A stretch of 59,207 bases of DNA from Candidatus Oscillibacter pullicola (GTDB lineage: Bacteria; Bacillota; Clostridia; Oscillospirales; Oscillospiraceae): assembly GCA_019118935.1 (NCBI GenBank), contig DWXY01000033.1, positions 1 through 59,207 of the forward strand, read 5' to 3'. This document shows positions 3,109 to 56,844 of this stretch, in pieces (position 1 is the first letter of the stretch; the number at the start of each line of letters is the position of its first letter). Made by a program: the position numbers and the translations under genes. Below the pieces are notes generated by a model, which was not told the DNA's origin, ran no database searches, and saw only the letters and a list, made by a program, of their open reading frames with translations.

Positions 3109-5829
3109 ATGTTACTAAGCAGAAAGTGGCTGGACGAGTTCGTGCACGTCGATGCCAATGATAAAGATTTTGCTGAGGCCATGACCCTCTCCGGGTCCAA
3201 GGTGGAGACCACCGAGGACCGGGGAGCCGAGATCTCCAACATTGTGGTGGGCACCATCCTCACCATGGAGCGCCACCCGGATTCCGACCACATGTGGGTC
3301 TGCCAGCTGGACGTGGGGCAGAACGCGCCCATCCAGATCGTCACCGGCGCCTGGAATATCCACCCCGGCGACGTGGTGCCCGTGGCCCTGCACAAATCCA
3401 CCCTCCCCGGCGGGAAGAAGATCGAAAAGGGCAAGCTGCGGGGCGTGGAGTCCAACGGCATGATGTGCGGCCTCTATGAGCTGGGGCTGGACGAGCGGGA
3501 CTTCCCCTATGCCGCCATTGTCCCCGCCGCTATCCTGAACGACTATCACCCCCTGGACAAGAACAAGCCCTCCATCCCCGCCGATATCAAGGCCGGGGAC
3601 AAGGTGTTCGGGCCTGTGGTCTGCGCCCAGGTCACTGCTTTGGAGGTGACGGGCGTCAACCAGTTCTCCTGCGGCCTGACCATCGGCAGTGAGACCGTAT
3701 CCCTGGTCACCGCCTGCCCCAACCTCCATGTGGGGGATCTGGTGGCCTACAACACCAAGACCCATACCATCTGCACCCTGGAGGAGCTCCACGCCGACCA
3801 GAAGGAGTTCCCCCACTGCATCCCCGACGGCATCTTCATCCTCCACGAGGATGGGATCCAGAACGGCGACGACATCAAGCCGGTCATCGGCGCCGACGAC
3901 CACGTGGTGGAGTTTGAGATCACCCCCAACCGGCCCGACTGCCTCAGCGTCATCGGCCTGGCCCGGGAGGTGGCCGCCACCTACCAGCAGCCTCTGACCC
4001 TCCACGAGCCGGAGGTGAAGGGCGGCGCCGACGGCGTGCTGACGGACCTGCTGGACATCGAGACTCCCGCCGCCGATCTGGTGCCCCGGTACACCGCCCG
4101 GATGGTGCGGAACGTGAAGATCGCCCCCTCCCCCAAGTGGATGCGGGAGCGGCTGCGGAGCATGGGCGTCCGCCCCATCAACAACATCGTGGACATCACC
4201 AACTACGTGATGCTGGAGTACGGCCAGCCCATGCACGCCTTTGACTACCGCTACGTGAAGGGCGGCCACATCATCGTCCGCCGGGCGGAGGAGGGGGAGA
4301 CCCTCACCACCTTGGACGGCAACGTCCGCACCCTGAACGCCAATCACCTGGTCATTGCCGACGAGACCCGGGCCGTGGGTCTGGCGGGCATCATGGGCGG
4401 CGAGAACAGCGAGATCGTGGCGGACACCACCGACGTGGTGTTCGAGTCCGCCAACTTCGACGGCACCTGCATCCGCAAGGGCGCCCTGGCCCTGGGGATG
4501 CGGACCGAGGCCAGCGCCAAAAATGAAAAGGGTCTGGATCCCCTGAACACCCTGCCCGCCGTCCAGCGGGCCTGCGAGCTGGTGGAGCTGCTGGGCGCCG
4601 GCGAAGTGGTGGACGGCGTCATCGATATCCTCAACTACGTGCCCCAGCCCCACACCATCCGCATGGACCCGGAGCGTGTGAACGCTCTGCTGGGCACCGA
4701 CATCCCCGCGGTGGAGCAGTACCAGTATCTGGCCCGGGTGGACATCCGCACGGCGGACGGCAGCTGCCCCGACGGCCCCGCCGACGTGATCGTCCCTTCC
4801 TGGCGGGGCGACGTGGAGGGCATCGCGGACCTGGCGGAGGAAGTGGCCCGGTTCTACGGCTACAACAACATCCCCACCACCCTGATGCGGGGCCAGACTA
4901 CCCTGGGCGGCTATGGAGCGGAGGAGATCCTGGAGCGCCGGGTGTCCAGCGTGTGCCGGGCCTTCGGCTATGACGAGATCATCACCTACTCCTTCATCTC
5001 CCCCACCTGCTACGACAAGATCCGCTGGCCGGAGGATTACCAGCGGCGGAACTCCCTCAAGATCCTGAACCCCCTGGGGGAGGACACCTCCATCATGCGG
5101 ACCACCACCCTGCCCTCCATGCTGGAGATCCTGACCCGGAACTACAACTACCGCAATCAGGACGTGAAGCTCTACGAGGTGGGCCGGACCTATCTACCCG
5201 GCGGCGAGGACGGCCTGGCCATCGAGTCCAAGGTGCTGACCCTGGGCGCCTACGGCGGCGACATGGACTTCTACGCCATGAAGGGCGTCATCGAGGCGGT
5301 TCTCAAGGAGCTGCGGGTGAAGGACGTGACCTTCCGCACCGGCAGCGGCCTGCCGGAGGAGCTCTCCTACCATCCCGGCCGCTTCGCCGAGGTGTGGAGC
5401 GGCAGCGACTGCCTGGGCTGGTTCGGCCAGATCCATCCCCTGGTGGCCAAGAACTACGGCGTGGACGCGGAATTCTACTGCGCGGAGCTGGCCATGGACG
5501 AACTGGAGAACGCCAAGGGCGCCGATCCGGAGTACGCGCCCCTGCCCAAGTTCCCCGCCGTCACCCGGGACATCGCCGTGGTGTGCGACAAGGCCGTCAC
5601 CGTGGGAGCGCTGGAGGACTGCATCCGCCGGGGCGCCAAGGGGCTGCTGAAGGATGTCACCCTGTTCGACATCTACACCGGCACCGGCATCCCGGAGGGC
5701 AAGAAGAGCGTGGCCTTCAACCTGACGCTCCGCTCCGACGACCGCAGCCTCACCGCCCAGGAGGCCGACGAGGATGTGAAGAGCATTCTGGAGACGCTGA
5801 AGGCAGAGCTGAACGCCGTCCTGCGGTAA
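3109..5829 (+). CDS. pheT: Phenylalanyl-tRNA synthetase beta subunit with an inserted OB-like domain
   Basis: Beta subunit of PheRS, 906 residues, about 100 more than the usual 790-810. Visible parts in order are the EMAP/OB tRNA-binding domain (about 40-130), an insert (about 135-237), the B3/4 region after EITPNRPDCLSVIGLAREV (about 270), the B5 and synthetase-like core, and a C-terminal FDX-ACB anticodon-binding domain beginning near PKFPAVTRDIAVV. The insert resembles a degenerate second tRNA-binding OB fold: it repeats the pattern V-x-V-T-A-x-x-N-x-x-x-G-D seen in the first domain. An AAAGGAG site precedes the ATG at 3109. It is co-transcribed with pheS under the T-box. Confidence 0.96.
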   Translation: MLLSRKWLDEFVHVDANDKDFAEAMTLSGSKVETTEDRGAEISNIVVGTILTMERHPDSDHMWVCQLDVGQNAPIQIVTGAWNIHPGDVVPVALHKSTLPGGKKIEKGKLRGVESNGMMCGLYELGLDERDFPYAAIVPAAILNDYHPLDKNKPSIPADIKAGDKVFGPVVCAQVTALEVTGVNQFSCGLTIGSETVSLVTACPNLHVGDLVAYNTKTHTICTLEELHADQKEFPHCIPDGIFILHEDGIQNGDDIKPVIGADDHVVEFEITPNRPDCLSVIGLAREVAATYQQPLTLHEPEVKGGADGVLTDLLDIETPAADLVPRYTARMVRNVKIAPSPKWMRERLRSMGVRPINNIVDITNYVMLEYGQPMHAFDYRYVKGGHIIVRRAEEGETLTTLDGNVRTLNANHLVIADETRAVGLAGIMGGENSEIVADTTDVVFESANFDGTCIRKGALALGMRTEASAKNEKGLDPLNTLPAVQRACELVELLGAGEVVDGVIDILNYVPQPHTIRMDPERVNALLGTDIPAVEQYQYLARVDIRTADGSCPDGPADVIVPSWRGDVEGIADLAEEVARFYGYNNIPTTLMRGQTTLGGYGAEEILERRVSSVCRAFGYDEIITYSFISPTCYDKIRWPEDYQRRNSLKILNPLGEDTSIMRTTTLPSMLEILTRNYNYRNQDVKLYEVGRTYLPGGEDGLAIESKVLTLGAYGGDMDFYAMKGVIEAVLKELRVKDVTFRTGSGLPEELSYHPGRFAEVWSGSDCLGWFGQIHPLVAKNYGVDAEFYCAELAMDELENAKGADPEYAPLPKFPAVTRDIAVVCDKAVTVGALEDCIRRGAKGLLKDVTLFDIYTGTGIPEGKKSVAFNLTLRSDDRSLTAQEADEDVKSILETLKAELNAVLR

Positions 5830-5940
5830 CACGCGGCCGCCTGCGGACTGTACAGCGGGCCTGTGTGCCGCCGCGTCCAAGCGCTTTGGCGCAGACAGGA
5901 ACCTTGAGCCGGGCGGATGCGTTCCGCCCGGCTCAAATCC
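5830..5940 (+). repeat. Palindromic intergenic element after pheT (related to those at yjbQ and uppP)
   Basis: Directly after the pheT stop lies a GC-rich stretch. Its part 5858-5940 resembles, in gene-sense orientation, the elements after yjbQ and uppP: a GCGTC-AAGCG segment, a TGGCG-AG-CAG segment, ACCTTGAGC, and then a palindrome. The palindrome is perfect here: 13 bp (5904-5916 with 5924-5936) with a 7-base loop and no T-run. Unlike the other two loci, no duplicated gene tail is visible. The rest of the gap to the ireB promoter (5941-6098) shows nothing I can assign. Confidence 0.5.
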
Positions 5941-6098
5941 AATCCCCCAGCGGCGCCGATGCGGATGCCGCGTATCCCGGAGGCGCTGTGAGGCGGGACA
6001 AAAGCCGTTCTGCTGCACTGGGCCCCCCTGTCCTTTCAGTCCAGCGCCCTCCCGGCGATTATGGGGTCGTATTTTTTCAAATTTCATGCGGAAAACGC

Positions 6099-8575: not shown

Positions 8576-8660
8576 GAGGAAATTCTCCTTTCAAATTTGA
8601 TTCATGCGATTCCGGCCACCACAATGCAGCGCCTCACCTGCCGCTCTCTCCTTTCCTGAT

Positions 8661-9311
8661 TCAGTCTTCTGTTTTCTCCCCGCCGCAGAGGGCGGCCAGC
8701 TCCCGGTCCAGGTTCTCATAGAACCGGGCGATGTGGATGCCGTCCACCAGGGCGTGGTTGGCCAGCAGCGTCATGGGCAGCAGGGTCCGGCCCTCCTGCC
8801 GGTGCCAGCGGCCCCAGGTGATGCGGGGATTGCTGTCCGCCGGCGTTGGGGTGGGCTGGGTCAGGGCCGTGTAGGACAGCCACGGGACACAGGAGACGAA
8901 GAACAGGCTCTCCCCGTCCTCACCGTCCTCCAGGGAGGGCGCCTCCTTCACCCGCTCCTGCTCCGCCGCCGCATAGGGCAGGAACTCCCGGAAGGGCCGG
9001 TCCGCCTCCAGCTGGCAGTAGCAGTAGGTCCCGTCCGGCAGGGCCACCGTATGGGAGGAGGGGCAGCGGTCGTACTCCACCACCTGGTCCCCCCGGATGC
9101 GCCGCCGCAGCTCCGGCACGCCGTTGGCCGCCCGGACAGCGGCGTACAGCACCGCCAGGAAGAAACTGCTGCCGGTCTCCCGGCACCAGGCCGCCAGCTC
9201 CGTCACATCCACCTGCACCGTCACCCCCACATAGGGATTGGCCAGGGTCTGAAAGTATGCGAATTGGTCCCGCCGGGGCTCCCGGGACATGTCCACCGTC
9301 CGCCAATTCAT
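8661..9311 (-). CDS. CatA-type chloramphenicol acetyltransferase family protein
   Basis: A 216-residue protein of the classical (type A) CAT fold. The N-terminus follows the family pattern (M-N-W-x-x-V-D, then FAYFQTLANPYVGVTVQVDVT). The C-terminal active-site motif is NHALVDGIH, with the catalytic His186 and structural Asp190 of the HxxxDG signature. Authentic CAT enzymes read HHAVxDG, so this is a divergent member and chloramphenicol need not be the substrate. A GAGGAGG site precedes the ATG. It is the first gene of a probable two-gene unit with the structurally unrelated CatB-type acetyltransferase. Confidence 0.87.
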   Translation of the reverse strand: MNWRTVDMSREPRRDQFAYFQTLANPYVGVTVQVDVTELAAWCRETGSSFFLAVLYAAVRAANGVPELRRRIRGDQVVEYDRCPSSHTVALPDGTYCYCQLEADRPFREFLPYAAAEQERVKEAPSLEDGEDGESLFFVSCVPWLSYTALTQPTPTPADSNPRITWGRWHRQEGRTLLPMTLLANHALVDGIHIARFYENLDRELAALCGGEKTED

Positions 9312-49298: not shown

Positions 49299-49534
49299 CT
49301 CACTCCCCATCACCTGGAACACGATGTCCCGCACCCGGTCCCGGGTGTCGCATCCCCCAGCCGCTTGGCGCGGCCGGGGACCCCGCATCTCACTGGAGCG
49401 GACAGGCAAAGCCCGCCCGCTCCAAGGTCCCGGCTCCGCCGGGACGCTTGAACGCCGGACTCCCGGCGCCCACGCCGCACTCACTCCCCCATCACCTGGA
49501 ACACGATGTCCCGCACCCGGTCCCGGGTGTCGCA
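49299..49534 (-). repeat. Palindromic element flanked by a direct repeat of the yjbQ 3' end
   Basis: The last 55 bases of yjbQ with its stop (49480-49534) are repeated at 49299-49352 (54 bases, one C missing, otherwise identical). Between them is a 127-base insert (49353-49479). Read in yjbQ sense, the insert contains GGCGTTCAAGCGTC, GGCGGAG, ACCTTGGAGCGGGC, a GGCTTTGCC hairpin core, CCGCTC, CGGGGTCCC and a final GC hairpin. These parts occur in the same order in the uppP element. The distal copy of the tail is out of frame and non-functional. No transposase is present. Confidence 0.75.
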
Positions 49535-49933
49535 CTCAATGAGGGTCAGGTTCTGCCAGGGCCCCACGGTGATTTTGCCGTTCACAAAGGGCACCGTGAT
49601 GAAGGGGGACAGCAGCGCCGCCTTGATGTGGGAGGAACCGTTGTCGTCATGCCAGGTCTCATGGTGCCAGTAGGGCACCACCCGGCCCTTCTCATCCAGA
49701 TAGGGGGAGAACACATCCAGCGCCTCCTTCAGGTCGTGGTTCACGATGCCCGGCTCGAACTCCAGGGTCGTCAGGCCCGCCACGCCGCCGGTGGTGAAGC
49801 CGGTGACCGTCCCGGCGGAGATGCCGTGCTGCCGGCAGGCCTCCTCCACCGCGTGCTGAAAGTCCTCCGTCACGTCGATCATGCCCATGTGGGCCTTGGT
49901 GTGGTACGTCTTTCTCTCCGTGTAAACTGCCAT
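49481..49933 (-). CDS. yjbQ: YjbQ family protein (UPF0047, thiamine-phosphate-synthase-like fold)
   Basis: A 150-residue protein of the YjbQ/UPF0047 family. Conserved parts are the VTGFTTGGVAGLTTLEFEPG strand region, PYWHHETWHDDNGSSHIKAALLSP (the His/Asp-rich probable active site), and GTWQ-like VGPWQNLTLIECD near the end. Members can replace thiamine-phosphate synthase weakly, but the true role is unclear. The start MAVYTERKT follows GAGGAGG by 8 bases. The 3' end is duplicated beyond a palindromic element. Confidence 0.9.
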   Translation of the reverse strand: MAVYTERKTYHTKAHMGMIDVTEDFQHAVEEACRQHGISAGTVTGFTTGGVAGLTTLEFEPGIVNHDLKEALDVFSPYLDEKGRVVPYWHHETWHDDNGSSHIKAALLSPFITVPFVNGKITVGPWQNLTLIECDTRDRVRDIVFQVMGE

Positions 49934-49959
49934 CTTCCATGCCTCCTCTGTTTTTTGCA

Positions 49960-49988
49960 TTGTAACACAGTTCCGCCCATGTTACAAT
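49960..49988 (+). promoter_or_regulatory. Promoter of the smr-amidase-mgmt operon
   Basis: TTGTAA (49960-49965), 17 bases, TACAAT (49983-49988), divergent from yjbQ. Confidence 0.6.
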
Positions 49989-53034: not shown

Positions 53035-55593
53035 TCAGGTCTCCTCTTCCGTGGGGAAGGGGGGCTCGTCCGCCTCCGGGGCTGGCGCGCCGCCCATCTG
53101 CATCTCCTGCCACTGGGCACGGGTGATCAGCAGCTGCCTGGGCTTGGAGCCCTCGAAGGGCCCCACGATGCCCCGTTCCTCCATCTGGTCCACCAGGCGG
53201 GCGGCCCGGGAGTAGCCCAGCTTCAGCCGGCGCTGGAGCATGGAGACAGAGGCCTGTCCGGTCTCCAGCACCACCTCCACGGCGGCGGGGAGCAGCTCGT
53301 CCCCCTCGTCCTCTCCGGCCTCCGGCGCCGCGGCAGCGGCGCCCTTGCCGCCCTTCTCCTTCTCCTGCATGGACTCCTCGATCTTGGCCATGACCTCGTC
53401 GGAGTAATGGGCCTCGCCGGACTGCTTCACAAACTCCACCACCCGCTCGATCTCCTCCGGGGAGATGAAGCAGCCCTGGACGCGGGTGGGCTTGCCCTGG
53501 CCCAGGGGGGCATAGAGCATGTCGCCCTTGCCCACCAGCTTCTCCGCGCCGGTGTTGTCCAGGATGATCCGGGACTCCAGAGAGGAGGCCACAGCAAAGG
53601 CGATGCGGCTGGGGATATTGGCCTTCATGAGGCCGGTGATCACGTCTGCGGAGGGCCGCTGGGTGGCGATCACCAGATGCACGCCGGCGGCGCGGCCCAT
53701 CTGGGCCACCCGGCAGATGGACTCCTCCACCTCCTTGGCAGCCACCAGCATCAGATCGGCCAGCTCGTCGATGACCACCACCACGCTGGGCAGGGTCTCC
53801 AGGTCCTCGCTGGCCCGGGCCAGGCGGTTGAACTCCTCCAGCTTCTTCACGCCGTGCTCGGAGAAGGTCTTGTACCGCTTCATCATCTCGAACACCGCCC
53901 ACTGGAGGGCGCCGGCGGCCTTCTTGGGATCCGTCACCACCGGGATCAGCAGGTGGGGGATGCCGTTGTAGGGGGCCAGCTCCACCATCTTGGGGTCCAC
54001 CATGATGAAGCGGACCTCATCCGGGGTGGACTTGTACAGCAGCGACACAATCAGGGAGTTGGTGCACACGGACTTGCCGGAGCCGGTGGTGCCGGCGATC
54101 AGCACGTGGGGCAGACGCTCGATGTCCCCCACGATGTTCCGGCCGCCGATGTCCCGGCCCAGGGCGAAGGCCACCTTGGACTTGTGCTCCGTGAACTCCC
54201 GGGACTCGATCACGTCCCGGATCAGCACCGGTGTCACCTGCTTGTTGGGCACCTCGATACCCACCACGGAGATCTTGTCCGGGATGGGGGCGATCCGCAC
54301 GCCGGAGGCACCCAGGGCCAGGGCGATGTCATCCGACAGGTTGGTGATCTTGCTGAGCTTCACACCCTGGTCCAGCACGAACTCATACCGGGTGACGGAG
54401 GGGCCGTGGACCACGTCCCCGGCGGTGGCGTCCACACCGAAGCTGGTGAGGGTCTCCGCCAGGCGGCGGGAGTTGTTCCGCAGCTCCGCGCCGGTCTCGG
54501 CGTAGTTTTCCTCCCGGCTCTCCTGCAGCAGGGTGATGGGGGGGAACTGATAGGTGTCCGCATCCTCCGTCAGCTTCTGCTCGATCTCCGCGGTCACCGC
54601 CGCCGTGGCGGCGGCTACCTCCTGGGCCACAGCCTTCTTCCCCGCCGCCGGGACAGGCGGGACGGCAGGCGCCGCAGGGGCGGGCTCCGGAGCGGACTCC
54701 TCTTCCGCCACGGGCTCCAGGGCGGGAGCGGCCTTGGTGCGGGCCGGAGACGGCGCAGATTCCAGCGCCGCCTGCTCCGCCTCCTTGTCGGAGAGCACCT
54801 GGTCCGGCGTCTTCATCTTGTCGGACTTATGCCGGAAGAAGCCCGTGAACCGGCCGGGCTCTTCCTCCGGCTGGGCGGACGGCTCCTCGCCGTCCAGGGG
54901 AATGTCGATGGCGGGCCTGCTCTGGCGCTCTCCCCGCCGCCGGGGCGGCTCCGCAGGGGCGATGTGGATGGCGGGCGCGGGCTCCGGCTCCTCCTCGTAC
55001 TCCGGCCGGTTCCGCACCATCTCCAGGATGGCGGAGGGCGTCACATGCAGGGCCGCCAGCAGCAGCACCGCCAGCAGCAGGCCGAAGAGGAAGAGAGACA
55101 CCACCTTGGAGACCGCCAGCACCGCCGCCTCCGCCAGCAGGCCGGAGACGGCGCCGCCCGCCTTCAGGGCAAGGCCCGCCGTCCAGAGATTCTTCAGGAC
55201 TCCCTGGCCGCTCAGCGCATAGTCTCCCCCTGCGAAAATGGTGTGAAACAGCGCCCCTGCCAGCAGCGGCAGCAGCAGGGCGCAGGTGGTCCGCAGGGCG
55301 ACCGGGCGGCCCCGGTGCAGCAGCAGGATCCCTCCCGCCAGCAGCATGGCAGGGCCGGCCAGCCAGTAGCCATAGCCGAACAGCCCCTTCAGGAGCTTGG
55401 CCAGCAGGTCGATGAGGATCGCCTGCACGCCGCAGTAGCTCACCAGCACACACAGCGCCAGCACCAGCAGCACCACACCCCCCACCTCCCGGCGGATGGG
55501 ACGCTTCTGAGGCTGCTTGCCCTTGGCCGTGCGGGAGCCGGAGCGGCTGCCGCTCTTTTTCGTTGTCGTCTTCTTCTGCGTTGAGGATGCCAT
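53035..55593 (-). CDS. ftsK: DNA translocase FtsK/SpoIIIE
   Basis: An 852-residue DNA pump acting at the septum. A basic N-terminus is followed by four membrane helices (about 38-190), a long Pro/Ala/Glu-rich linker (about 205-330), the FtsK alpha domain (about 350-450), the motor (about 460-720; Walker A GTTGSGKS, Walker B VVVVIDELADLMLV, then ATQRPSADVITGLMKANIPSRIAF) and a C-terminal gamma winged helix (about 790-850: SVSMLQRRLKLGYSRAARLVDQMEERGIVGP). It clears chromosomes from the division or spore septum. GAAGGAGAG precedes the ATG. Confidence 0.96.
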   Translation of the reverse strand: MASSTQKKTTTKKSGSRSGSRTAKGKQPQKRPIRREVGGVVLLVLALCVLVSYCGVQAILIDLLAKLLKGLFGYGYWLAGPAMLLAGGILLLHRGRPVALRTTCALLLPLLAGALFHTIFAGGDYALSGQGVLKNLWTAGLALKAGGAVSGLLAEAAVLAVSKVVSLFLFGLLLAVLLLAALHVTPSAILEMVRNRPEYEEEPEPAPAIHIAPAEPPRRRGERQSRPAIDIPLDGEEPSAQPEEEPGRFTGFFRHKSDKMKTPDQVLSDKEAEQAALESAPSPARTKAAPALEPVAEEESAPEPAPAAPAVPPVPAAGKKAVAQEVAAATAAVTAEIEQKLTEDADTYQFPPITLLQESREENYAETGAELRNNSRRLAETLTSFGVDATAGDVVHGPSVTRYEFVLDQGVKLSKITNLSDDIALALGASGVRIAPIPDKISVVGIEVPNKQVTPVLIRDVIESREFTEHKSKVAFALGRDIGGRNIVGDIERLPHVLIAGTTGSGKSVCTNSLIVSLLYKSTPDEVRFIMVDPKMVELAPYNGIPHLLIPVVTDPKKAAGALQWAVFEMMKRYKTFSEHGVKKLEEFNRLARASEDLETLPSVVVVIDELADLMLVAAKEVEESICRVAQMGRAAGVHLVIATQRPSADVITGLMKANIPSRIAFAVASSLESRIILDNTGAEKLVGKGDMLYAPLGQGKPTRVQGCFISPEEIERVVEFVKQSGEAHYSDEVMAKIEESMQEKEKGGKGAAAAAPEAGEDEGDELLPAAVEVVLETGQASVSMLQRRLKLGYSRAARLVDQMEERGIVGPFEGSKPRQLLITRAQWQEMQMGGAPAPEADEPPFPTEEET

Positions 55594-55707
55594 GCTTCTC
55601 TCCTTCGAGGTTCCAATCTCCTTTGTTTACCGCCGATGCGGCGCAGCGGAGTTGCGCTGTAAAATCTTCGGTTTTGCAGAGGCCCTTTTCTTTCGTGAGT
55701 GGTCCGG

Positions 55708-56059
55708 CTCCGCCAGACGCTTGACGTCGCTTCCGCGGCGGGCGTGCTCTGCGCGCCAAAGGCAAGTTACTTCAGCACCAGCGTCAGCGCCAGCACAATC
55801 AGGCCCATTGCCCAGCAGTAATACGCGAACCAGCCGAACTTCGCCCAGCAAAATCTTTGATTTTGCTGGGACCCCGTGATTTCACCTGAGCGGTCAGGCT
55901 GAGCCTGCCCGCTCCAAGGTCTGCCTCCGCCAGACGCTTGACGCCGCTTCCGCGGCGGGCGTGCTCTGCGCGCCAAGGGCAAGTTACTTCAGCACCAGCG
56001 TCAGCGCCAGCACAATCAGGCCCATTGCCCAGCAATAATACGCAAACCAGCCGAACTTG
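55708..56059 (-). repeat. Tandem duplication of the uppP 3' end with a palindromic element
   Basis: A 135-base segment holding the last 24 codons of uppP, the stop and about 60 bases of downstream sequence (55925-56059) is repeated at 55708-55842 with about four mismatches. The 82 bases between (55843-55924) contain, in uppP sense, ACCTTGGAGCGGGC, a GGCTCAGCC core, CCGCTC, CGGGGTCCC and a perfect hairpin CCCAGCAAAATC / GATTTTGCTGGG (55844-55870). The same order of parts is found after yjbQ. The distal tail copy has no gene in front of it. The remainder of the gap to ftsK (55594-55707) carries a weaker T/A-rich hairpin only. Confidence 0.8.
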
Positions 56060-56844
56060 CCTTTGTCGGCGATCATCTTCAGCAGGCGGATACAGGCGTA
56101 ACCCACCACGGCGGCCACCGCCACGCCCACCAGGTACACGGGGATATCCGATACGATGATGGAATCCTCCTGGATGGCGTCCTTCAAGGTCAGGATGTTG
56201 GCCCCCAGGATGGCGGGGATGGACATCAGGAAGGAAAAGCGCACTGCGAATTTCCGGTCAAATCCCACAAAGCAGCCGGCGGTGATGGTGGTGCCGGAGC
56301 GGGAGATACCGGGGCAGGTGGCGATGGCCTGGGCAATGCCCACCAGCAGCACATCCAGCAGTCTGGCGCTCCGCTCCGTCTTGCGGCCTTTTTTCACCCG
56401 GTCGCTGGCGAACAGCAGAAAGCCCGTCACGATCAGGGCCCCCGCCACGAAATAGATATTGTTGGACAGACCCTCCACCAGATCCTTCACCGGCAGCACC
56501 ACAAACAGGGGCAGCGTTCCCACGATGATCAGCAGGATCATCCGCCGTGCCGGCGGGATGGGGTTGGGCGTGGTGCCGCGAACCAAATCGCGGACGCCGT
56601 CGATCAGCTCCACGATCATGTCCCGGATATCCTGCCAGTAGGCCACGAACACCGCCACCAGGGTGCCCAGGTGCAGCAGCACGTCAAAAAAGTCCGGCGT
56701 CGCCGGAACGCCCGCCTGGCCCAGGAAGTGCTCCGCAATGGCCAGATGGCCGGAGCTGGAGATGGGCAGGAACTCCGCCAGGCCCTGAATCAGGCCCAGC
56801 AGGATGGATGACAGCAAAGACAATGGATTCAATCCCCCAGTCAT
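55984..56844 (-). CDS. uppP: Undecaprenyl-diphosphatase
   Basis: A 286-residue polytopic membrane phosphatase (BacA/UppP) that dephosphorylates undecaprenyl diphosphate for the lipid carrier cycle and gives bacitracin tolerance. Signature motifs are QGLAEFLPISSSGHLAIAEHF (about 20-40) and the PGISRSGTTITAGCFVGFDR segment (about 172-191), with the conserved Glu, Ser and Arg. The length is normal. Its last 24 codons are copied in a tandem repeat downstream. It acts in the same pathway as the DUF368 protein at 12 kb. Confidence 0.95.
   Translation of the reverse strand: MTGGLNPLSLLSSILLGLIQGLAEFLPISSSGHLAIAEHFLGQAGVPATPDFFDVLLHLGTLVAVFVAYWQDIRDMIVELIDGVRDLVRGTTPNPIPPARRMILLIIVGTLPLFVVLPVKDLVEGLSNNIYFVAGALIVTGFLLFASDRVKKGRKTERSARLLDVLLVGIAQAIATCPGISRSGTTITAGCFVGFDRKFAVRFSFLMSIPAILGANILTLKDAIQEDSIIVSDIPVYLVGVAVAAVVGYACIRLLKMIADKGKFGWFAYYCWAMGLIVLALTLVLK

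Follow-up and report, generated by a model that had tools for sequence, protein, structure and literature searches.

Bacterial genomes harbour dispersed non-coding repeats such as REP/BIME, ERIC and similar families, which are small and hairpin-rich, occur in tens of copies and lie mostly beside genes. We know of neither a long target-derived direct copy nor a target-derived inverted copy in REP/BIME or ERIC. The element described here, located behind the uppP gene of Candidatus Oscillibacter pullicola, resembles these repeats in its small size, its non-coding and hairpin-rich sequence, its tens of copies and its mostly gene-adjacent position. It differs from REP elements, which are moved by RAYT, in that a Y1 transposase does not track its copies; REP elements are the subject of PMC2817692 and PMC8266576.

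Layout and fold of the element behind uppP

The window, which is the whole analysed stretch of 59,207 nucleotides (contig DWXY01000033.1), contains one element behind uppP, a second behind yjbQ and a probable third, decayed copy. The host gene is taken to be uppP, a name adopted from a preliminary description of the same DNA and consistent with the translated sequence. Copies were scored with R1, a covariance model built from 14 aligned copies; the uppP and yjbQ copies are both among these training copies and the copies from other genomes are not. On the minus strand, the uppP locus is composed of the uppP body, s, tail1 with its stop, s', hp1, the CAAG-hp2-CTTG helix, hp3, GGGGU-hp4, tail2 with its stop and a truncated second element, in this order. 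The features are:

55984..56844, minus strand: uppP (undecaprenyl-diphosphatase), host gene; ORF of 286 aa, the last 24 codons being the copied tail
56054..56068, minus strand: s, start point of the copied tail within uppP, complementary to s'
55984..56058, minus strand: tail1, the uppP end through the stop, copied segment
55971..55985, minus strand: s', reverse complement of s at the 5' end of the element; AACTTGCCCTTGGCG, imperfect against s
55842..55965, minus strand: scaffold (element E), modelled by R1; best R1 match 55844-55965, E 5.8e-17
55942..55957, minus strand: hp1, CGCCGC-GGAA-GCGGCG
55915..55940, minus strand: CAAG-hp2-CTTG helix
55888..55914, minus strand: hp3, GAGCGGGC..GCTC
55844..55875, minus strand: GGGG-U block and closing hairpin hp4 with a perfect 12-bp stem, element 3' end
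55767..55841, minus strand: tail2, repeat of the uppP tail including the stop, immediately following hp4
55701..55766, minus strand: truncated second element (s', hp1 and hp2 only) after tail2; weak R1 match 55655-55748, E 0.44
53035..55593, minus strand: downstream gene, ftsK-like by eye; follows uppP without an element in 8 relatives with flank read
49481..49960, minus strand: yjbQ, host gene of the second element of the window
49487..49534, minus strand: yjbQ tail1, 48 nt, 100% identical to tail2
49355..49476, minus strand: element copy behind yjbQ, R1 E 1.3e-15
49305..49352, minus strand: yjbQ tail2; site empty in the relative G018
5858..5964, plus strand: probable third, decayed element copy behind the stop of another gene, R1 E 6.4e-4

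The uppP tail forms part of a direct repeat of 141 nt (55701-55841 and 55918-56058, 96% identity, spacing 217), which comprises the last 24 uppP codons, the stop and 66 downstream bases and whose two copies are separated by a spacer of 76 bases (55842-55917). The preliminary description had correctly recognised a tandem uppP tail at this spacing; its unit of 135 bases at roughly 97% identity, its 60 downstream bases and its spacer of 82 bases are replaced by the values measured here. The perfect 12-bp closing stem that it reported was found at 55844-55855 and 55859-55870 (CCCAGCAAAATC/GATTTTGCTGGG). An inverted repeat of 15 nt (93%) had been overlooked; its arms lie in uppP where the copied tail begins (56054-56068) and past the copied stop (55754-55768), and it is a feature common in the element family. 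The proposed common design with the yjbQ insert is borne out by a 57-nt block of spacer and adjacent bases (55865-55921) that is 77% identical to positions 49373-49429 of the yjbQ insert, and the yjbQ tail is repeated as well (48 nt, 100%). Scored in their own genome, the uppP copy reached 103.4 bits (E 5.8e-17) and the yjbQ copy 96.5 bits (E 1.3e-15). In the decayed copy at 5858-5964, hp2 and hp3 are present, the GGGG-hp4 end is unrecognisable and no tail copy was found. A second element type, perhaps a sister family, was observed at locus L009 (G000:C33, near 11848), where a GGGGTCCCC-hairpin is followed by AAAGGAGGAGCAAGGGAGCG...; it is flanked by a 65-nt tail copy (98%) and, by eye, by a 10-nt complement of the junction.

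The scaffold of about 120 nt consists of hp1, CAAG-hp2-CTTG, hp3 and GGGGU-hp4 and has a well-defined 3' end. A first alignment of 14 copies, which was not fitted to a model, contained 37 consensus pairs, 24 of them with double compensatory changes. When 97 distinct copies were aligned, 95.0% of the cells were paired and double changes were present at 33 of the 37 pairs, figures that lean towards structure because this alignment was fitted to R1 and includes the training copies. Resolved by part, double changes in the 97 copies were found at 0 of 3 pairs in hp1, 10 of 11 in the hp2 helix with CAAG/CTTG, 12 of 12 in the central hairpin hp3 and 11 of 11 in the closing hairpin hp4, and the earlier suggestion that structure rather than sequence is conserved is thereby supported. 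The covariation score in the same model-fitted alignment was 0.521, compared with 0.166 after shuffling and no more than 0.114 with slid partners. Cells with G-U or U-G numbered 151 against 23 with A-C or C-A, or 51 against 22 without two mostly G-U pairs, an excess that is expected if the plus strand of the element is the folded strand. Selection appears to act on the fold of a single strand of the element, RNA being its most likely form. No credible Rfam match was obtained for eight loci searched at E<=1 or for the window element searched at E<=10, the latter yielding two chance-level matches. A weak T-box leader match (47.9 bits, gathering score 93) was recorded beside an element copy at locus L035 (1669-1883).

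Copies, tail duplication and the inverted copy

In its own genome (G000, 161 contigs), the element yielded at least 31 R1 matches at E<=1e-5, some of them at contig ends, where one locus may be split. Together with the copies in other genomes, they confirm that a shared element with further copies exists, as had been predicted from the window. When the spacer was searched against this genome as DNA, 13 matches were obtained, some of which represent the same hairpin on both strands, with two pairs lying 160 and 224 bp apart. The core pattern CAAGCG..CCTTGGAGCG occurred in 7 copies and 0 times in the reversed control; the GGGGTCCCC-hairpin pattern, with 19 matches versus 13 in the reversed control, is weak alone. 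Reading of 14 loci from the pattern and sequence searches revealed that the upstream flank is repeated immediately behind the hairpin in 12, with a repeat judged diverged by eye in one and no element in one (L039). Locus L026, also among these 14, has a different scaffold type. Some copies form arrays of the order tail-E-tail-E-tail. Simple local tandem duplication without a shared element, which the preliminary description had raised as the outcome that would speak against its proposal, is contradicted; plain duplication alone does not suffice as an account, given that many different genes have the scaffold in common.

At E<=0.001, R1 matches were obtained in 15 of the 40 genomes searched, the own genome included, and in 14 of the 25 genomes of this genus. 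The genome collections compared contain one genome per species, and copy number within the genus was patchy, ranging from 0 to at least 37 matches per genome. The hp2-core matches listed came from records titled Flavonifractor, Pseudoflavonifractor, Oscillibacter, Intestinimonas and Dysosmobacter, and further ones from unnamed Oscillospiraceae, Clostridiales and a few others, isolates as well as MAGs, with taxa assigned by record title only. At the same R1 threshold, at least 53 matches were counted in F. plautii ATCC 29863, 57 in Pseudoflavonifractor An184, 51 in Flavonifractor An10, 23 in P. phocaeensis An507, 19 in Oscillibacter valericigenes An860, 17 in CCNA10 (titled complete genome), 14 in Flavonifractor An82, 12 in the MAG Lab288P1bin3, 7 in Flavonifractor An92 and 2 in Pseudoflavonifractor MSJ-37, all of these being lower bounds, since scoring covered up to 150 candidates per genome here and in G000 and up to 89 in the search of 40 genomes. 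An IMG/VR viral contig (L323) carries two element copies (4894-5020 and 8595-8721) that are 3.7 kb apart, have no tail copy and each lie directly before AAAGGAG and a start codon. An autonomous version of the element in this contig was considered and rejected, as the genes between the copies look by eye like phage structural genes.

Tail copies were counted in three sets. Set 1 comprises 96 of 108 R1 hits, from which 10 overlapping loci at the same place and 2 hits at contig ends were dropped. Set 2 was obtained from an hp2-core scan of named bacterial genomes (80 of 117 listed stretches) and two viral contigs; of its 98 R1 matches, 93 were analysed after omission of short or cut ones and 89 were long enough. 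Set 3 consists of 33 of 38 matches from further records and contributed 24 new copies. A flank copy adjoining the modelled 3' end was present in 87/96, 74/89 and 18/24 copies of the respective sets, 179/209 in total, and within set 3 in 18 of the 22 new copies from isolate records. The aligned direct copy measures about 28-168 nt (32-168 in set 2, with a similar spread in set 1) and the spacing of the copies in set 2 is 162-316.

The inverted copy s', the reverse complement of the start of the tail copy over about 9-20 nt, was called at a complementarity score of at least 18, and the shuffled-locus control used s and s' from different loci. The idea of s' arose by eye in set 1, where 50 of 87 copies were positive compared with 5.0% in the control. 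Set 2, which played no part in forming it, gave 60 of 74 compared with 6.1%, and its perfect stretches reached 20 nt; set 3 gave 11 of 17 as a count without control. Array members and orthologs were left unmerged in the tail-copy and s' counts of sets 1 and 2, and duplicate junctions were omitted in the later locus tests. Across the three sets, 57 of 178 tail-bearing copies (32%) had no s' at score 18. In 65 loci chosen for strong pairing, the s:s' pairing is centred on positions -6 to +8 around the first copied base, and the junctions of 155 loci display a weak GGAGG-like preference that resembles a Shine-Dalgarno sequence.

Apparent age of the loci and likeness of the copied segments

Orthologs of uppP were found in 20 of the 26 genomes searched, and the 3' flank was read in 11 of these 20. 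The element is present in G000 and in G018, whose s' at the same uppP site is CTTGCCTTTGG, and the interval between uppP and the next gene lacks it in G006, G007, G008, G011, G014, G016, G017 and G023. In G024 (L166), a shorter and different insert occupies the same position, with hp1, another closing hairpin, an own tail copy and complement, and almost identical tails; we take it for a degenerate ortholog. The yjbQ gene was found in 11 of 20 genomes and its flank was read in 8: the site is filled in G000 and G004, empty in G018, carries an hp1-like remnant in G013 and has no element in G005, G008, G015 and G021.

The high identity of the uppP repeat had been interpreted as the sign of a recent event, a view that is at odds with the element at the same uppP site of G018, where UppP is 92% identical. 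Tail1 and tail2 were on average 95.6% identical within a locus versus 85.2% between species around the junction, and identity within the locus was higher in 105 of 111 orthologous pairs, with the reservations that the two figures do not cover the same stretch, that local alignment favours the first and that the pairs are not independent. As G018 and, in a putatively degenerate form, G024 share the site and tails are more alike within loci, the uppP locus looks old and its tails renewed or kept alike. Judged from such sequence comparisons, many loci look old, and their tail repeats look young or kept alike. In 23 of 111 orthologous pairs, the junctions of the two species are more than 3 nt apart. 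At a gene that we take to be mutS (for genes besides uppP and yjbQ, names are our reading of the translations), related scaffolds are found in four species; in one of them the junction is displaced by about 13 nt and s' matches the displaced position.

Scaffolds that are 80-90% identical and belong to different locus clusters (28 pairs, at least two of which are array members of one gene split by clustering) had targets that matched on average at 8.3 of 18 bases, against a background of about 8.0 (7.9-8.1) for less related scaffolds. The four scaffold pairs above 90% identity are neighbours in one array. Since the targets of related scaffolds are unrelated when the genes differ, s' is not carried along but is made or remade locally. 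Among 58 orthologous same-site pairs, 70 positions of s differed, and s' had changed to match at 36, was unchanged at 19 and behaved otherwise at 15; only positions inside aligned s:s' spans entered this count, a choice that favours paired positions, and the pairs are not independent. That s' tracks s was also seen in loci classed as antisense (L102/L268 and L217/L238/L267). Neutral decay of s' after insertion was rejected, as the fall with tail divergence that it predicts is absent: over 154 loci, s:s' pairing did not fall (Spearman -0.06 to -0.15), and the proportion of flanking pairs kept was 0.80, 0.82 and 0.71 at mean tail identities of 0.977, 0.926 and 0.854 (35, 26 and 14 loci), the value being slightly lower only for the most diverged loci. 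This steady pairing argues that s' is not simply a scar that was made once and then decays. In a tree read by eye and with several weak supports, scaffolds tend to group by gene across species, which suggests that many loci are old and that movement to new genes may be rare.

Comparison of the two tails in 83 sense loci revealed 141 synonymous and 54 non-synonymous codon changes and 0 stops, whereas the neutral expectation is 29/68/3% (frame and orientation were assigned on the basis of either the length of the open frame or GC3, which left 58 of 157 loci unassigned in this test and 43 of 157 in the antisense test). This bias initially pointed to translation of tail2. The coding part of 12 antisense loci gave 23 synonymous and 15 non-synonymous changes; an earlier antisense count that included non-coding bases displayed no bias, which appeared once the count was restricted to coding sequence. 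Polarised with orthologs (63 loci), tail1 had 52 synonymous and 13 non-synonymous changes and tail2 had 33 synonymous, 30 non-synonymous and 1 stop, and tail1 is thus the more constrained of the two copies family-wide. In 88 of 112 loci, joining the body to tail2 leaves the stop unchanged. Because the codon bias is also present in antisense loci and tail1 is constrained while tail2 is relaxed, splicing is not claimed. The spacing of the tails modulo 3 is mixed (32/30/21 of 83) and in-frame read-through of the element was rejected on these grounds; a test for programmed translational bypass met the same mixed spacing and the relaxed tail2.

Candidate enzymes were searched in 26 genomes, reverse transcriptase being sought as PF00078 only. 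RVT_1 (PF00078) was absent from the search results of G000, G004 and G018 and present in 9/26 genomes, including the copy-rich G007, G008 and G013; the six genomes named are 76-96% complete (G000 91%, G004 76%). Y1_Tnp (PF01797) was detected in 5/26 genomes, among them G000, G004 (fragments) and G007, and not in the copy-rich G008, G013 and G018. RtcB was detected in 4/26 genomes, none of which has element matches, and was not found in G000. TnpB (PF07282) was detected in 7/26 genomes, G007 being the only copy-rich one, and was not found in G000, G004, G008, G013 and G018. None of these four candidate partners correlates with element copy number.

Candidate explanations and relation to known systems

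The reading that we favour, at a probability of roughly 0.45, is a non-coding mobile element of about 120 nt that copies target sequence on both sides upon insertion. The scaffold would come in single-stranded at a site with a weak likeness to GGAGG, and its 3' end would be joined to one broken strand. A polymerase that fills the gap would then make two copies of the adjacent target, an inverted one (s') and a direct one (tail2), with template switching around a single-stranded intermediate as the probable route. Insertions would be tolerated because the copied tail includes a stop, so that the host gene mostly keeps its own end, and deletion or re-duplication between the tails could account for losses, arrays and tails that are kept alike. 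In favour of this reading stand the covarying scaffold, the strand preference, the tail copy adjoining the 3' end, the s' complementarity, the related scaffolds with unrelated targets, the filled and empty sites and the patchy copy number. Counting against it are the candidate enzymes that do not track the copies, the by-eye grouping of scaffolds by gene, the s:s' pairing that stays level with tail divergence and the 57 of 178 tail-bearing copies in which s' fell short of the threshold; nor did any insertion between strains of a single species appear in the collections, which contain one genome per species.

Several observations would suit a more static picture, the main rival, in which old, locus-bound structured RNA elements are reshaped by replication errors with little or no active transposition; slipped mispairing of the tails would cause loss, arrays and homogenisation, and template switching between s and s' would keep them complementary. 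We consider this possible but unlikely. It agrees with the by-eye grouping of scaffolds by gene across species, with tails whose identity within a locus exceeds that between species (105/111 pairs), with an s' that tracks s (36 compensated among 70 differing positions, antisense loci included), with the tail-E-tail-E-tail arrays and with the finding that no enzyme tracks the copies. However, it leaves the spread of one scaffold to dozens of genes and the adjacency of 3' end and tail in 179/209 copies unexplained, and it is countered by 80-90% identical scaffolds that sit at different genes, by junctions more than 3 nt away in 23/111 pairs and by the shift of about 13 nt with a fitting s' at the putative mutS. 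That the whole arrangement is an assembly artefact or a simple local tandem duplication can practically be dismissed: the window does stem from a draft genome of 161 contigs, but the same architecture recurs in isolate records (tail copy in 18/22 new copies) and CCNA10, titled a complete genome, has at least 17 matches.

The complementarity of s' to what would be the ligated sequence (-6 to +8, in the 65 loci chosen for strong pairing) brings intron-like (self-)splicing into consideration, with s' as internal guide, excision of s-tail1-scaffold and joining of the body to tail2, which would give the same protein either way. The tail codon changes of the 83 sense loci (141 synonymous, 54 non-synonymous, 0 stops) and the same stop after body and tail2 in 88/112 fit this proposal, whereas a constrained tail1 beside a relaxed tail2 (63 polarised loci), a codon bias that extends to antisense loci, where splicing of the gene cannot act, the lack of an Rfam intron match and copies that miss tail2 render it improbable. 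Very unlikely is RNA-guided retrohoming, for which s' would be a guide in the element RNA that leads it to a matching site. The guide-like 5' position of s' beside a structured scaffold, the pairing of s across the junction and same-site insertions in several species are compatible with such a guide, but it is not inherited with the scaffold, and RVT_1 and TnpB were not found in G000, G004 and G018. A further reading, likewise rather improbable, would make the element a folded RNA of about 120 nt that founds a new class of catalytic RNAs or intron-like elements in bacteria: selfish, without a protein enzyme of its own, and re-established at gene ends with a locally renewed guide s'. If it were real, excision, non-excision and re-insertion would all leave the protein intact, with host sequence copied on both sides.

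To our knowledge, no described mobile element bears the insertion signature seen here, in which a folded scaffold is combined with both direct and inverted copies of its target. No description of the element was encountered in the parts of the literature that the search covered, most subscription journals lying outside its scope. Tens of copies are present in gut bacteria (F. plautii, Flavonifractor An10 and Pseudoflavonifractor An184), and the 3' ends of housekeeping genes (uppP and the putative mutS) are changed. Should the inverted copy serve as a guide, the element would be a naturally occurring system able to rewrite that guide from its target; either way, it provides a testable case of structured RNA or single-stranded DNA shaping bacterial genes.

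Retrozymes (PMC4918200) are likewise non-coding, structured and non-autonomous; the present element differs in having no known ribozyme match and in the gene-tail duplication beside it. A MITE or other cut-and-paste derivative was rejected, as the target duplication is neither short nor fixed (32-168 nt in set 2, similar in set 1) and there are no element-owned terminal inverted repeats, s' pairing with the target and varying by gene. A diversity-generating retroelement was rejected in view of RVT_1, which was not found in G000, and of tail differences mainly at third codon positions, and an OMEGA/TnpB system in view of TnpB, which was not found in the copy-rich G000, G004, G008, G013 and G018 and is present in G007.

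Group I and group II introns are similar in that a short guide complementary across a junction lies beside a folded RNA. As a guide-type likeness, circularly permuted group II RNAs were compared (PMC8637638). The introns differ from the present element, which has a scaffold of about 120 nt without a credible Rfam match and a relaxed second tail, and for which splicing is a candidate process only. A group I intron core gave no match in eight loci at E<=1 or in the window element at E<=10, and group II introns gave no Rfam match in the eight loci and the window element, nor was RVT_1 found in G000, G004 and G018. With SINE-like elements and retroelements that use TPRT, the element shares a well-defined 3' end and a long, variable direct duplication (179/209 copies here); in contrast to them it is bacterial, its s' is made locally and RVT_1 was not found in the three genomes just named, although it is present in the copy-rich G007, G008 and G013. 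Introner elements, and intron gain via duplication of an exon segment, are eukaryotic and spliceosomal, unlike the element described here, and have in common with it a coding duplication that leaves the protein intact.
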